A stretch of DNA of 28,849 nucleotides from a virus. Under the pieces are notes generated by a model. It was given only the letters and a program-made list of their open reading frames with translations. It was not told the origin of the DNA and ran no database searches. How positions within the stretch are numbered: position 1 is the first letter of the stretch; every line of letters begins with the position of its first letter. Shown here piece by piece: positions 20,417 through 28,849 of the stretch. The position numbers and the translations under genes are program-made. Where the stretch lies: IMG/VR virus record IMGVR_UViG_3300027963_000253, positions 1-28,849 of that record; one strand, 5' to 3'.

Positions 20417-20694
20417 GCACAAAAGCCGCAACGTTTGCTTCTAAACGCAATCGCGCTGCGGGCCTCGGCGATACGCGGCCAACGTTGCGCCGGTTGGGCG
20501 TGATCGTTGGAATGTTGCGTCGGGATCTGACTTTGCCGAGCTGTGCCAGGTTGGGCGTTAAGCTCGAATGTAGCTACAAAACGATTCAGCGGGACATCGA
20601 TCTGCTGCGTGATTTCTTTGGCTACCCGCTGGAATACGACGCCACCAAGTACCACTACAAATTGGCGGGGCCGCTGCCGAGGGCGGTGCTGTGA
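20413..20694 (+). CDS. Winged HTH regulator
   Basis: The 93-residue protein starts at GTG 20413. Residues about 27-93 carry an N-terminal WYL/DeoR-type winged helix: RLGVIVGMLRRDLTLPSCAR, then SYKTIQRDIDLLRDFFG and a wing EYDATKYHYKL. No ligand domain follows, so it is a minimal DNA-binding protein. It sits just before the nuclease cassette and may control early transcription; its target is unknown. Confidence 0.65.
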   Translation: MSTKAATFASKRNRAAGLGDTRPTLRRLGVIVGMLRRDLTLPSCARLGVKLECSYKTIQRDIDLLRDFFGYPLEYDATKYHYKLAGPLPRAVL

Positions 20695-20819
20695 GCTTGC
20701 AGGATCTGCTCACCATGTTCTTTGGCCGCATTATCTGCACCTACACGTTAGAGCAGTACGCCGACTGTGTGCGAGAGGCCCGCGCCAATCGCCACCGTTG
20801 GGGAATAGGGCAGTGGTGA
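20691..20819 (+). CDS. Small hypothetical protein
   Basis: This 42-residue frame starts at GTG 20691 in a GTGA overlap and ends in a GTGA overlap at 20816. It contains an aromatic, hydrophobic first half (LLTMFFGRIICTYTL) and a basic second half (EARANRHRWG). No family is recognised; the two exact overlaps are the support for translation. Confidence 0.5.
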   Translation: MSLQDLLTMFFGRIICTYTLEQYADCVREARANRHRWGIGQW

Positions 20820-21889
20820 GCGTAGGATCACTAACTCAATCTTGTTTGTTTGGGGCAAATAATCAGATTTATTTTGACGCACTAATCCCTCGTCGAATTA
20901 CTCAAGAGGATGTCGCAAATGAGCTGGGAATAGGGGTAACCACAGTTGATAGGTGCCTAAAGGGAGTCGGACATCCAGACACTATAGAGTCTGTAAAACG
21001 CGTAGCTGAAAGACTGGGCTACAAAAGGGTCTATAAATGGGCGTCAATTAAAAAAGAGTTTATTAAGGGACAAGACTTAAAAGGAAGGCCAGTTATAGAC
21101 GAGCAGTCTGTTGTTATTTTAAGAAAAAGAGGAAAATCGATCAGATACATATCACAAATTAGTGGGATTTGTAAGCCGAAAATTAGTCAAATACTTAAAA
21201 TAAATGGAGAATCAACTGAAAATTTTCAGACAATAAAAGATTTTAATGGATTGTCTAAGGCGCAAAATATTGTGCTCAAAAACCTCAAAAGAGAGAAAGC
21301 TGCTTTAACGCTTGATGCTCAATTTAAAATCAGGGGATCTTGGGCAAGGAAAACAGCGGCCAAAATATTAAGGCAATATAAAAATGGGTTTTCAGTAATA
21401 AGGGCGGCTAAAAATATTTTTGTAGATAAAGGCGTTGCATTTCTGCTTGTCTACAAAACAAAGGCTTATTGGTTTATATCAAATAAACGAATTAAAATGC
21501 ACGATAGAACTGGTCCGTCTATTACTCGCACTTATTCTAGTAATTACTATGACGAAAAATCGATGCTTTGCGTTGTAGAGGAAAAGCTAAAAGAAAAATT
21601 TTATAAAGCACTCATTAGAAAGGAGGCGAACGTGGCCAGTACCTTTTACGGTAAAAACGTTCGCCATCTGCGAGCGGATTTTGTAGTAGAGCGAGACAAC
21701 ACGAAACCATTAGCTGTTGAGGTCAAAGTTTGCACCGATTGTAAGTCTATAAAAGTGCTTATGGGTCAAATCTTAATTTATAGAACATATGGTTACGACG
21801 TGCAGTGTGTTTTTCCTGATGACGTTTTTATTTCTGAATTTGCTCAGAACATGTTGAGCAAAAACAACGTCACTTATTGGACTGTATGA
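20816..21889 (+). CDS. LacI-type HTH + PD-(D/E)XK nuclease cassette gene
   Basis: From GTG 20816 the protein has 357 residues. Residues 28-69 form a LacI-type helix-turn-helix (DVANELGIGVTTVDRCLKG, then AERLGY). A second helix-turn-helix-like stretch follows (RGKSIRYISQISGICKPKIS). The middle, about 130-248, is lysine-rich and unrecognised. The C-terminus has a PD-(D/E)XK pattern: E255, D288 in RADFVV, E302-V-K304 in AVEVKV and Q318. No sugar-binding domain is present. The gene is very AT-rich (13 of 60 G/C at 21181-21240) and bounded by an 8-bp direct repeat. A mobile, homing-like or competitor-targeting endonuclease is inferred. Confidence 0.65.
   Translation: MSVGSLTQSCLFGANNQIYFDALIPRRITQEDVANELGIGVTTVDRCLKGVGHPDTIESVKRVAERLGYKRVYKWASIKKEFIKGQDLKGRPVIDEQSVVILRKRGKSIRYISQISGICKPKISQILKINGESTENFQTIKDFNGLSKAQNIVLKNLKREKAALTLDAQFKIRGSWARKTAAKILRQYKNGFSVIRAAKNIFVDKGVAFLLVYKTKAYWFISNKRIKMHDRTGPSITRTYSSNYYDEKSMLCVVEEKLKEKFYKALIRKEANVASTFYGKNVRHLRADFVVERDNTKPLAVEVKVCTDCKSIKVLMGQILIYRTYGYDVQCVFPDDVFISEFAQNMLSKNNVTYWTV
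20817..20824 (+). repeat. TGAGCGTA direct repeat, left boundary
   Basis: TGAGCGTA begins at the second base of the nuclease start codon. The identical eight bases recur at 21887, directly after the AT-rich gene, 1,070 bases away. The copies fall exactly on the start-codon overlaps of successive genes. Confidence 0.65.
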
Positions 21890-22423: not shown

Positions 22424-24384
22424 TTGCACTGCCCCCAGCCACCGAGGCCATTTACCACAACGGGGCGCCTGAAGGTGAGCGCAACACACAACTGTTCCGC
22501 ATGGCGTTGCAGTTCCGTGATCAAGGCTTGTCGCAGTTTGATGCGGAGTCAGAGGCCGAGATCTGGGGATTTAAGAATGGGCTAACGCAGAACGAATGCG
22601 TGGCAGCCGTAAAATCCGCTTACAGCAAGCCAGCCAGGGAGCCTTGGAGGCCGAAAGCAAAGTACGGCTATCAGAACGGGGCGATCGTTAGGGAGGATAT
22701 GCCAGTTCCACCAATGCCCATCAGCGTAGAGAGCGGGCCGGTAGATAAGTTTCTGACTACCTGTTTTGACGTGGGCGATTTCATAAATATCACAAGATCG
22801 ATTCGGGACGGCGACCGCGAGCGGCCGGACGGTGCAGGCGAGACGCGAAGCCGTGAGGAATGGCTAGAATTGTTTAAGGCCGACGGGTTGAAAGAGTGGC
22901 AGGGCGATGCAGTAGGCGTCTATGTGTCGATTAACGCTAACAATGGAAACGGACGAGCTGCAGAACACGTCACGAAATATCGGCACTGCCTAATTGAATT
23001 TGACGAAAGTACGCTGCAAGAACAGTGGGCGATTGTTAAGCGCAGTGGCCTGCCCACCTCTGCCATCATTAAGAGCGGTTCACGAAGCCTGCATGCTTTT
23101 GTTGATGTACGTGCAGCCAACGCCAAGGAGTTTGCCGAGCGTGTGGCGTTTATTTACAAGCACCTAGAGCACACAAAGCTGGATCCGGCCAACAAGGACG
23201 CCGGGCGGTTGTCCAGGTTGCCCGGTGCTATGAGGACGGCGACTGGTCAGCAGCAGGAGCTTGTCGAATGCGGTGCACCTACGCTCACGTATATTGAATG
23301 GCAGGAGCGCACGATTTACGGTGATATTCCAGAGCCGTACAAGTGGGTGGACTTGATCAATTTTAAGGAGGACGCAGATCCCACACAACTTTTAGGCAAG
23401 CGGTGGATTTGCCGTGGCGGATCGGCTTTGTGGGTGGGTAGCAGTGGCCTTGGCAAGAGCGTGCTTTGCATGCAGGCAGCGATTACCTGGGCGATTGCTG
23501 AATCATTCTTTGGAATCAACCCACACGGTGAAGGCTTGAAGTCGTTAATCATTCAAGCTGAGAACGACGAGGGAGACGTCGCCGAATCAGTTCAAGGCGT
23601 ATTTAAGGCGATGAACCTTACCGATAAGCAAAAAGAATTGGTTATGGCTAGGGTAACTATCGTGCGTGATTGCACCTCCACAGGGGAGAAGTTTGTGGAT
23701 CGGGTGCGTCGCTTAGTAGAAAAGTATAAGCCCGACCTAGTTTGGATTGATCCATTGCTTGCGTTTATCGGTGGCGACCTATCCAGCCAGGAGACGGCAA
23801 GTGCGTTCCTACGCAATATGCTTAACCCGCTATCTTTGTCGGCTGGGTTTGCTTGGATGCTCATTCATCACACGCCCAAGCCAGTTAAGGAAGGCAACGG
23901 GTATCAAGGCGCAGACAAGGCGTATAGCGGTTTCGGCTCAAGCGAGCTGACGAATTGGGCGAGGAGCGTATTAACCCTTGCGCCTTGTGGCGAGGATGCC
24001 GATGGCAAGCGTATTTACAGGCTTGAGGTAACCAAGCGCGGCAAGCGGTCTAATCTTAATTGTAAGGGCATTATAGCGCAAAACGCAGTGCAGCCTCACG
24101 CCAACCTGCGTCATAGTGATGTAGGGCTGGCGTGGATTGCTGCTGATGAGCCAGAACCCAAGACGGCTGGCAGGCCGGAGATTGTGGTTAATTTTGATGA
24201 CTACAAGCACATCGTAGCAAAGGGCATAAGTGCAGGCGATTTGCAAAGCTGCATACGCAATAAGTCGAAAGTTGGTCATACCAAGAGCCGCGACTTGACG
24301 GCGGCTTGGGAATTAGAGGGTCTGATTAAAAATACAGGCACTGAAAAGGCTAAAAAATACGTACTAAATGAGGAACAAAAATGA
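22420..24384 (+). CDS. Replicative primase-helicase (PrimPol + AAA/RecA-like)
   Basis: The 654-residue protein joins several parts. An N-terminal helical PriCT-like segment (GERNTQLFRMALQFRDQG) comes first. An archaeo-eukaryotic primase core follows, with E193-F-D195 in CLIEFDE, S223-L-H225 in SGSRSLHAF and DAGRLSRLPG (260-269). A RepA/AAA_25-type ATPase has Walker A GSSGLGKS (340-347), Walker B LVWID (440-444) and HH at 483-484. The C-terminal helical region resembles a winged helix. It would prime and unwind phage DNA. A likely iteron origin lies immediately downstream. This is the main replication protein of the operon. Confidence 0.85.
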   Translation: MIALPPATEAIYHNGAPEGERNTQLFRMALQFRDQGLSQFDAESEAEIWGFKNGLTQNECVAAVKSAYSKPAREPWRPKAKYGYQNGAIVREDMPVPPMPISVESGPVDKFLTTCFDVGDFINITRSIRDGDRERPDGAGETRSREEWLELFKADGLKEWQGDAVGVYVSINANNGNGRAAEHVTKYRHCLIEFDESTLQEQWAIVKRSGLPTSAIIKSGSRSLHAFVDVRAANAKEFAERVAFIYKHLEHTKLDPANKDAGRLSRLPGAMRTATGQQQELVECGAPTLTYIEWQERTIYGDIPEPYKWVDLINFKEDADPTQLLGKRWICRGGSALWVGSSGLGKSVLCMQAAITWAIAESFFGINPHGEGLKSLIIQAENDEGDVAESVQGVFKAMNLTDKQKELVMARVTIVRDCTSTGEKFVDRVRRLVEKYKPDLVWIDPLLAFIGGDLSSQETASAFLRNMLNPLSLSAGFAWMLIHHTPKPVKEGNGYQGADKAYSGFGSSELTNWARSVLTLAPCGEDADGKRIYRLEVTKRGKRSNLNCKGIIAQNAVQPHANLRHSDVGLAWIAADEPEPKTAGRPEIVVNFDDYKHIVAKGISAGDLQSCIRNKSKVGHTKSRDLTAAWELEGLIKNTGTEKAKKYVLNEEQK

Positions 24385-24539
24385 GCCTAAAAAGCCTATC
24401 ACCACTTATTCATGTTCTATCACCGTTAATTGGTAGAACGCCTATTGATGGATATCCCCCCTTTAAGGGGATATCCATTAATAGGGTTCGATGTTTCCAT
24501 CCATTGACCATCGATAGGGGCGATTTCCGTTCATTATGA
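24381..24539 (+). CDS. Small ORF across the putative origin
   Basis: A 52-residue frame starts in an ATGA overlap with the primase-helicase stop and ends in an ATGA overlap with the next gene, spanning the iterons and hairpin. The sequence (with IDGYPPFKGISINR at the hairpin) has no recognised domain. The open frame may simply let ribosomes cross the origin and keep coupling intact. Translation is plausible, function unproved. Confidence 0.35.
   Translation: MSLKSLSPLIHVLSPLIGRTPIDGYPPFKGISINRVRCFHPLTIDRGDFRSL
24395..24518. other. ori: Putative replication origin with iterons
   Basis: Five related elements with consensus ending in YRATAGG lie here. On the minus strand: 24395-24403, 24416-24424 (CTATCACC seen on plus, 21 bases apart) and 24441-24451. 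On the plus strand: 24475-24485 and 24508-24518 (CCATYRATAGG). The last three share eleven positions. They flank a long hairpin and follow directly on the primase-helicase gene, the usual place for an iteron origin. An operator for the downstream HTH gene is the alternative. Confidence 0.55.
24441..24485. repeat. Long inverted repeat (19-bp arms)
   Basis: CCTATTGATGGATATCCCC pairs with the complementary arm at 24467-24485 with one G-T wobble, around a seven-base loop CCTTTAA. The arms include two of the iteron copies facing each other. It could extrude as a cruciform or fold in RNA. There is no T-run, so it is not a standard terminator. Confidence 0.8.
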
Positions 24540-25027
24540 TTGACCAACAAATGCTAGAAAGAATCCCCTGCGGTTCGGCCCACATTTCCACCCGAATTGA
24601 TGGGATAGCGGATCTAGTCCATGAGGCTTTTTATGAACTGGGTCTGACTGTTACAACGTCCTCAGTGGCTTTGACCACTCAGGTGTTCCATTACCTTATC
24701 ACTAAAGCGCCAGACCATCCTGCGGTTCAGAACATGGCCGATACGCTGGAACAGTCTGTGCTGGCTGTTGTGCTTAACAGATCGACTAAGTCTATGACCC
24801 AGCTGGCTAAAGAGCACAAGATAACTAAACAGGCGTTTAGTAAGAGGGTGTTAGGGCTAACCGATCGCCTTGGGTTGCCTGTCAGAGCGCAGAAAAGTCA
24901 GAAGGCCCGTGAGGCATACGATCTCAGGGCAAGGAAGCACCACGACAAGCGGCGTCGTCAAATTCCTAAGTTTAACAATGCCGCACTATTGAAAGGCAGG
25001 GACAGATGCAAGAACTCAAAGAAGTAA
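24536..25027 (+). CDS. HTH DNA-binding protein (sigma region 4-like)
   Basis: The 163-residue protein has a helical N-terminal half and a C-terminal helix-turn-helix: NRSTKSMTQLAKEHKITKQA, then FSKRVLGLTDRLG, followed by a strongly basic tail (ARKHHDKRRRQ). The pattern fits a sigma-like or antiterminator/late-activator protein. It starts at ATG 24536 in an ATGA overlap and lies between the origin and the packaging genes, a good place for a late-gene activator. No specific family is recognised. Confidence 0.6.
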   Translation: MIDQQMLERIPCGSAHISTRIDGIADLVHEAFYELGLTVTTSSVALTTQVFHYLITKAPDHPAVQNMADTLEQSVLAVVLNRSTKSMTQLAKEHKITKQAFSKRVLGLTDRLGLPVRAQKSQKAREAYDLRARKHHDKRRRQIPKFNNAALLKGRDRCKNSKK

Positions 25028-25565: not shown

Positions 25566-26045
25566 ATGGGTAGGCCAGTTAATCACGACGTAAAGAGGGC
25601 GATGGCCGCCACGGGTAAATCCCGTGCCACCGTCTATTTACAGCGCAAGAAGGTGGAGGCCCAGCCGCTCGTAAAGGCCAAGGGCGGCGGGCTGGACGTC
25701 GAGATCCAGCGACTTGAGGATCTGGCTGCGAGCCTGGGCGAATCAGCAAAGGACGACACGCGAGCCGACCGCTCCGAGTTGATTAGCAACTACACAAAGC
25801 TGGTTGAGGCGTTGCGTAGAATGAAAGGCGACCGGCCAGACATCGACCAAGCAGAGGGCACGATGGTGCCAGTAGACGAGGCCGACAAGGTACTGGCCGG
25901 AAGGGATAACGCACTTGTCCCGCTACTTAAAGGAATGGCAAAGCGGTTGGCCCCGATCTGCGCAAATCGCCCAGCAGTTGAGGTAGAGGCTGAAGTTGAA
26001 AACGAAGTCGGGCAGATCATGCGCCAGGTTGAGGCAGCTCTGTGA
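25566..26045 (+). CDS. Small terminase subunit candidate
   Basis: From ATG 25566 the product has 159 residues (TTG 25557 would add three). The N-terminus MGRPVNHDVKRAMAATGKSR with ATVYLQRKK is a small helix-turn-helix for DNA recognition. A long helical region follows (LEDLAASLGESAKDD, LISNYTKLVEALRRM), and the acidic C-terminal helix could contact the large subunit. It overlaps the large terminase start as GTGA. Position and layout fit the DNA-recognition subunit of the packaging motor, so cos or pac should lie nearby. No Shine-Dalgarno is obvious. Confidence 0.65.
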   Translation: MGRPVNHDVKRAMAATGKSRATVYLQRKKVEAQPLVKAKGGGLDVEIQRLEDLAASLGESAKDDTRADRSELISNYTKLVEALRRMKGDRPDIDQAEGTMVPVDEADKVLAGRDNALVPLLKGMAKRLAPICANRPAVEVEAEVENEVGQIMRQVEAAL

Positions 26046-28134: not shown

Positions 28135-28849
28135 ATGGGTTTAGGTTCAAAAATTATCACGACATGGAGCCGCATGCTCCGTGCGGTTGGCCCGGATACT
28201 CGTAAGCGTCGGTTTGTCGAAGCACAGCTAGGCGATACAAGGCTGGACGTTAGCGCCGCATCACGGCAGGCAATCTCATCGTTAGCCCGCTGGCTTTGCT
28301 ATAACGACCCCACCATTCGCGGCGCAATCGATACTATCACCCGCAATACCATTGGCTCTGGCATCAAAGCTCAATCCCGTACAAGCGACGAGGCATGGAA
28401 CGCAGACGCCGAAGCGTGGTTTGATATGTGGAGCGGAAGTTGCGACGTGAGAGGAATTTTGGATTGGAACACCATGCAGCAGGTAGCCACCCGCACCATG
28501 TTGCGAGATAACGAAATATTTGCTCTGCTAACTGATAACGGTGACGGCTATCCGCTAATTCAGTTGGTGGAAGGGCACCGCTGCGAAACGCCGACCTACT
28601 TGGGCACAGAGACAAACATTTTCGACGGAGTGCGACTGAACAAAAACGGCAGGCCGCTGAGCTACTACATTCGCACGGGTAACGATGGCGAGAAATTTAC
28701 GGAGGTGCAGGCAAATGATTTAATCTTGCTGGCAGAACGCGATCGGGCAGATGAAGTGCGATCGATTAGCAAGCTGGCATCTTGCATTAACACTTGCCTT
28801 GATAGATCAGAAATTCTTGAGCAGGAAATGCTTGCGCTAAAAAGAGCAG
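28135..28849 (+). CDS. Portal protein, lambda gpB family, 3' partial
   Basis: The first 238 codons are present; the gene runs off the window. Family features include RQAISSLARWLCYNDPTIRG near the start, MLRDNEIFALLTDNGDG, IQLVEGHRCETP and DGVRLNKNGRPLSYYI, all characteristic of gpB-type portals. Twelve copies form the ring through which DNA enters and leaves the head and to which the terminase and connector dock. It begins one base after the connector stop. Protease/scaffold and capsid genes should follow outside the window. Confidence 0.9.
   Translation, partial: MGLGSKIITTWSRMLRAVGPDTRKRRFVEAQLGDTRLDVSAASRQAISSLARWLCYNDPTIRGAIDTITRNTIGSGIKAQSRTSDEAWNADAEAWFDMWSGSCDVRGILDWNTMQQVATRTMLRDNEIFALLTDNGDGYPLIQLVEGHRCETPTYLGTETNIFDGVRLNKNGRPLSYYIRTGNDGEKFTEVQANDLILLAERDRADEVRSISKLASCINTCLDRSEILEQEMLALKRA

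Follow-up and report, generated by a model that had tools for sequence, protein, structure and literature searches.

A stretch of 28,849 nt from an uncultured freshwater phage (IMGVR_UViG_3300027963_000253), hereafter the window, was analysed, and the segment directly downstream of its primase-helicase gene is, judged from sequence comparison, very probably the site at which replication of the phage starts. It is highly likely, taking the reading as a whole, that this segment is an origin built of iterons and a hairpin, that the C-terminal domain of the primase-helicase binds it, and that domain and origin together form a specificity cassette that has been exchanged. The original prediction of an origin at this position is supported by the retention of the repeats in relatives, and was much strengthened by the finding that iteron sequence is coupled to the C-terminal domain of the primase-helicase.

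Anatomy of the candidate origin

The candidate origin lies between two co-directional genes (Table 1). Five elements occur within 124 bases (24395-24518), three on the minus strand followed by two on the plus strand, which is the arrangement that had been noted. The five had been described as sharing YRATAGG; this is exact for four of them (24395-, 24441-, 24479+ and 24512+), but the fifth (24416-) reads TGATAGA and the common word is therefore YRATAGR. The spacing of 21 bases noted between the two leftmost copies is borne out (CTATCACC at 24396 and 24417), as are the 19-nt hairpin arms, which pair by 18 Watson-Crick pairs and one G.T.

The fold of the region was stronger than that of 200/200 dinucleotide shuffles (z -3.7). 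No other 124-base span of the window holds four YRATAGG, and the best 7-mer, 8-mer and 10-mer repeat counts were matched in 22, 6 and 0 of 100 shuffles, respectively. Within the window alone the hairpin is thus well beyond chance, but the excess of repeats is modest to marginal, and because repeated words are marginal in a single sequence relatives were needed to show that the repeats are real. Outside the origin there is only one further copy of GGTGATAG, at 28334 in the portal gene, which is probably there by chance.

Table 1. Features of the primase-helicase locus and the adjoining candidate origin (window coordinates).
Feature	Position	Strand	Remarks
Primase-helicase gene, 654 aa	22420-24384	+	PriCT-1-like N-terminus, AEP-like primase region, RepA-type/AAA_25 helicase, variable C-terminal domain
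C-terminal domain, residues ~580-654	24157-24381	+	Predicted winged helix; proposed iteron binder; left part of exchanged cassette
Intergenic segment, candidate origin	24385-24535	.	Right part of exchanged cassette; pairwise DNA alignments L013/L055 and L041/L063
Iteron 1, GGTGATAGG	24395-24403	-	Repeat analysis and relatives
Iteron 2, GGTGATAGA	24416-24424	-	21 bp from iteron 1
Iteron 3, CCATCAATAGG	24441-24451	-	Inside left hairpin arm
Left hairpin arm, 19 nt	24441-24459	+	Palindrome kept via two-sided changes in relatives
Hairpin loop CCTTTAA, 7 nt	24460-24466	+	Head CCCTTTAAGGG common to types A, B and F despite differing iterons
Right hairpin arm, 19 nt	24467-24485	+	Palindrome kept via two-sided changes in relatives
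Iteron 4, CCATTAATAGG	24475-24485	+	Inside right hairpin arm
Iteron 5, CCATCGATAGG	24508-24518	+	Repeat analysis
163-aa protein with HTH-like segment	24536-25027	+	No match between its sequence types and the iteron types

The genome encodes a terminase and a portal protein of its own; the gene for the terminase large subunit starts at 26042. The portal gene is cut by the window end (28135-28849 and 1-285), and there are relatives of 32-37 kb, so that the window probably represents an incomplete genome. Exact terminal repeats of 123 bp were present in two of four such relatives examined and one of 51 bp in another. A 448-aa protein with weak HTH/transcription-regulator matches is encoded at 20543-21889, a stretch low in G+C (about 38-43%, the window as a whole having ~50%), and its gene is possibly a recent acquisition.

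Conservation of the layout in relatives

Relatives were gathered by five protein-based scans of viral contigs, the last mostly overlapping with the others, and one scan of genome contigs, and are represented by 152 non-redundant loci that contain the gene end and the following segment. The genome-contig scan gave three matches, two of them on short MAG contigs, and pointed to no firm host. Absence of the repeats from close relatives had been proposed as evidence against an origin; they are not absent, short repeats being found directly behind the primase-helicase gene in every relative type examined.

The iteron sequence itself falls into at least six types: type A, CTATCACC or CTATCGAT with CCATYGATAGG; type B, CTTGAAGGT; type C, GTGCARTA; type D, CTTGGGGG; type E, CTTGAGGG; and type F, AATTTGTCTG. 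The layout is the same across types A-F and consists of iterons, a palindrome with an iteron in each of its arms, and opposed iterons. Iteron centres lie at -65, -44, -19, +19 and +52 relative to the dyad in type A and at -60, -37, +13 and +34 in type F, where the left arm holds a variant copy as well. CTATCACC occurs twice on the left side in 36 of the 37 relatives whose C-terminal domain carries GHTKSRDLT. The main palindrome of type C is bulged; it was seen by folding and missed by the automatic hairpin finder.

Pairing of the stem has been maintained by two-sided changes, from ATCCCC/GGGGAT to ATTCCC/GGGAAT in type A and from GATC/GATC to GTTC/GAAC and GTTA/TAAC in type B. A hairpin acting in RNA, as 3'-end protection, an attenuator or a terminator between replication and late genes, would be in keeping with the strong fold and with the G.T/G.U tolerated at a few stem positions. 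Most stem changes, however, preserve Watson-Crick dyad symmetry and the arms bear the same iterons as the flanks, no T-run follows the main hairpin, a search of Rfam returned nothing near the gathering score, and the link to the C-terminal domain described below would be left unexplained, so that we give an RNA role very little weight. The hairpin head in type C is GGCCTATAGGCC, in place of CCCTTTAAGGG. That the latter is common to types A, B and F though their iterons differ suggests that the head is not read by the C-terminal domain; it is perhaps a site of melting or priming.

Still other repeats lie behind the primase-helicase gene at two distant loci, one from a Verrucomicrobiota MAG (L170) and one from Gordonibacter (L171). 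Repeat arrays also occur directly behind the homologous genes of Javan535, FP_Lugh and Castelnaud, whose proteins are only 25-28% identical. The units of these distant arrays, in Streptococcus, Faecalibacterium and Flavonifractor phages and in the Gordonibacter and Verrucomicrobiota contigs, are unrelated (L277, 4349-4749; L278, 4346-4611; L279, 4363-4600; L171, 9648-9900; L170, just past the gene). The three distant phage proteins have HTH-like C-termini.

Coupling of the C-terminal domain to the candidate origin

The cluster to which the last ~75 residues of the protein belong predicts the origin cluster in 152/152 loci, with no exceptions. The clusters were 70 C, 45 A, 23 B, 12 D/E and three singletons; because their iterons are similar, B and D/E origins merge at coarser clustering cut-offs. 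On a tree built from the core of the primase-helicase gene, with the C-terminal domain left out, the domain changes 21 times, the origin changes 21 times and all 21 changes are joint, and the origin follows the domain in all of the supported independent pairs (11/11, sign p 0.001). At a finer level NTAGRY is paired with CTTGGGGG (6/6), QTAERY with CTTGAGGG (6/6), STAYR with CTTGAAGG (23/23), GHTKSRDLT with CTATCACC (37/37) and GETKSRDTT with CTATCCAC or CTATCGAT (8/8), and within related types residues of the predicted recognition helix match iteron positions.

The borders of the exchanged unit are sharp, phages that are 99% identical on both flanks having a wholly different C-terminal domain and origin. 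In one pair, L013 (type A) and L055 (type B), identity is 99.6% over residues 1-540 and 100% over the first 90 aa of the next protein, yet the C-terminal domain and origin differ. DNA alignments of this pair and of L041/L063 lose similarity towards the gene end and regain it at or beside the next start codon. Left borders were placed for 68 near-identical pairs and concentrate at residues 555-579, a further group being at 518-523; the border is internal to the gene and separates helicase from C-terminal domain.

A query of type-A origin DNA alone retrieved 23 contigs, and in each of them the origin was preceded by the type-A C-terminal motif; an origin without a primase-helicase, as a satellite thief might carry, was not found by the type-A pattern among these 23. 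A search for the type-B C-terminal domain elsewhere gave eight loci, seven of which were primase-helicase contigs already known; the sole new contig (L310) has a primase-helicase with a type-B origin.

A caveat that must be applied to such coupling is that adjacency by itself favours joint inheritance of domain and origin, but the gene downstream is equally adjacent and is not coupled, and the left border of the cassette falls within the primase-helicase gene. The original prediction had offered two candidate binders, the primase-helicase and the HTH protein encoded from 24536, and it is the primase-helicase that is favoured. The 24536 protein does have an HTH-like segment and is encoded next to the iterons; its sequence types, however, cut across iteron types, the independent-pairs test shows no association, and L013 and L055 have different iterons although the first 90 aa of this protein are identical in the two. 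It is therefore probably not the origin binder, and we give that role hardly any credence. At least five sequence types were recognised over its first 90 residues, with 40 type changes on the core-gene tree that reassort independently of the origin cassette, and the protein may be a second exchanged specificity factor.

The nearness of the terminase genes might suggest a packaging (pac/cos) site, but a pac site should follow the terminase, and these iterons are tied to the C-terminus of the primase-helicase; such a function is extremely improbable. An operator is an unlikely explanation but deserves more consideration: the C-terminal domain, or some other protein, would bind the repeats and repress the 24536 gene and the terminase operon, with replication starting elsewhere. 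The site does sit between co-directional genes, and initiators often autoregulate. A weak promoter-like match was found at 24511-24540, but such matches were no more frequent than in shuffles, the promoter and terminator scan as a whole being at chance, and opposed iterons around a maintained palindrome, with linkage to a primase-helicase, fit initiation better. Regulation could occur alongside origin function. The operator, RNA-hairpin, packaging and 24536-binder readings all explain the coupling less well than an origin does, or not at all.

The primase-helicase

The protein matches phrog_2597 (DNA primase, 4e-48) and PF13481 AAA_25 (RecA/RepA-like) at residues 312-487 (5e-22); AAA_25 was the only helicase match, with none to SF3, DUF927 or D5-type helicases. 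PF08708 (PriCT-1) matches residues 14-69 below threshold (E 0.0012, 18.8 bits against a Pfam cut-off of 21.1), and the homologue at L170 gives the same match (E 0.0095). The primase region has conserved EFDE, SRSLHA and GRLSRLPGA stretches and a predicted fold of low confidence; no Pfam AEP domain was matched, and a sequence search of the PDB found no match. The best reading of the domain order is an InversePrim-like protein comprising PriCT-1, primase and RepA-type helicase.

The C-terminal domain is predicted to be a winged helix. Its AF2 model has three helices followed by a two-strand wing (H-H-H-beta-beta), with a pLDDT of ~75-85 over most of the core, a domain mean of 70 and 47 for the full protein. 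Its best structural matches include many chains of solved winged helices (Z ~6 over ~60-70 residues), while Foldseek with this domain gave nothing significant (best E 0.05).

Proposed mode of initiation

We propose that the C-terminal winged-helix domain binds the iterons of the adjoining segment. With three iterons on one side of the palindrome and two of opposite orientation on the other, one of them in each arm, two oppositely oriented helicase assemblies could form on either side. The RepA-type helicase would then open the palindromic centre, the hairpin having some role in melting or priming, and priming on the exposed strands would fall to the primase domain that the protein also contains, so that initiation would be bidirectional. 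The specificity cassette would comprise the last ~75 codons and the ~150 bp of the origin; related phages trade it as a unit, which would change the specificity of replication but leave the remaining genome as it was.

GC skew, which had been suggested as a check, placed the origin neither here nor elsewhere: in the window and four larger relatives there is no sign change at the site, and since the genes run one way skew is uninformative. Over the 4 kb leading up to the origin skew stands at 0.12-0.16, and over the following 4 kb it is down to 0.05-0.09. This holds for the window, G001, G002, G014 and G015, but these five genomes are homologous and the drop is not independent evidence.

Comparison with known systems

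In the alpha protein of P4, primase, helicase and a C-terminal origin-binding domain are likewise combined in one iteron-binding protein, but the helicase is of a different family and ori and crr are separate; we know of no hairpin at P4 ori. In SaPIs the iterons lie directly behind the rep gene and are recognised by the C-terminal domain of Rep itself (Ubeda et al. 2007, summarised in PMC7581432). SaPI Rep/ori, SCCmec Cch2 and, as proposed, the present system are alike in that an initiator helicase reads the origin adjoining its own gene by its C-terminal domain. The present system would nevertheless work like SaPI Rep/ori without being a member, since its helicase is AAA_25/RepA-type with a PriCT-1-like/primase region and not DUF927 or D5-type, and it belongs to a phage that encodes terminase and portal itself and not to a satellite island; its iterons, moreover, are built into a hairpin.

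Plasmid pRN1 depends on a stem-loop located 3' of the primase-helicase gene, and comparable structures have been proposed for some phages (PMC4234260). Both pRN1 and phage BIP-1 share with the present system a multifunctional primase-helicase with a C-terminal winged helix (here predicted) and a stem-loop 3' of the gene of which the sequence diverges while the structure stays (PMC4234260). In contrast, the pRN1 helicase is SF3 and the pRN1 stem has a long loop, with no iterons described, where the present phages combine a RepA-type helicase with a short-loop hairpin and an iteron array.

Exchange of specificity has a parallel in the PLE satellites of Vibrio cholerae, in which the DNA-binding domain of RepA and the origin co-vary and have been swapped at least twice (PMC8263062). 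In both systems a DNA-binding domain of the initiator, here a predicted one, is exchanged with its cognate iteron origin and the other domain is conserved. PLE differs in having an N-terminal RepA_N domain, no helicase or primase and an origin in a separate noncoding region, while here the domain is C-terminal and the origin adjacent, and in having two specificity groups, in satellites, as against at least six types and 21 switches in phages.

The InversePrim family has PriCT-1 before the primase and then a RepA-family helicase (PMC5862659), as does the present protein in placing AAA_25 after the primase region. The sections of that paper on the family describe domain layout, and no origin or specificity exchange was found in them. 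Set against the open-access literature, the present case brings together, in one phage group, a RepA-type helicase, an iteron-bearing hairpin, six or more types and 21 inferred switches.

Biological significance

It is possible, though on balance slightly doubtful, that this phage genus carries a recurrently traded replication-specificity cassette that is kept diverse by selection. Such selection might come from escape from origin-targeting nucleases, from decoy origins in prophages or satellites, or from competition with co-infecting relatives. If this is true, the paired alleles would be a readable series of protein-DNA recognition.

Sequence alone would place origin, initiator and specificity domain for a group of phages that has not been cultured. 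The large natural series of matched alleles (NTAGRY/CTTGGGGG, QTAERY/CTTGAGGG, STAYR/CTTGAAGG and others) predicts which protein reads which site. It also suggests that free-living phages often exchange replication specificity, by recombination, between near-identical genomes, and what drives the switching of origins becomes a testable question.
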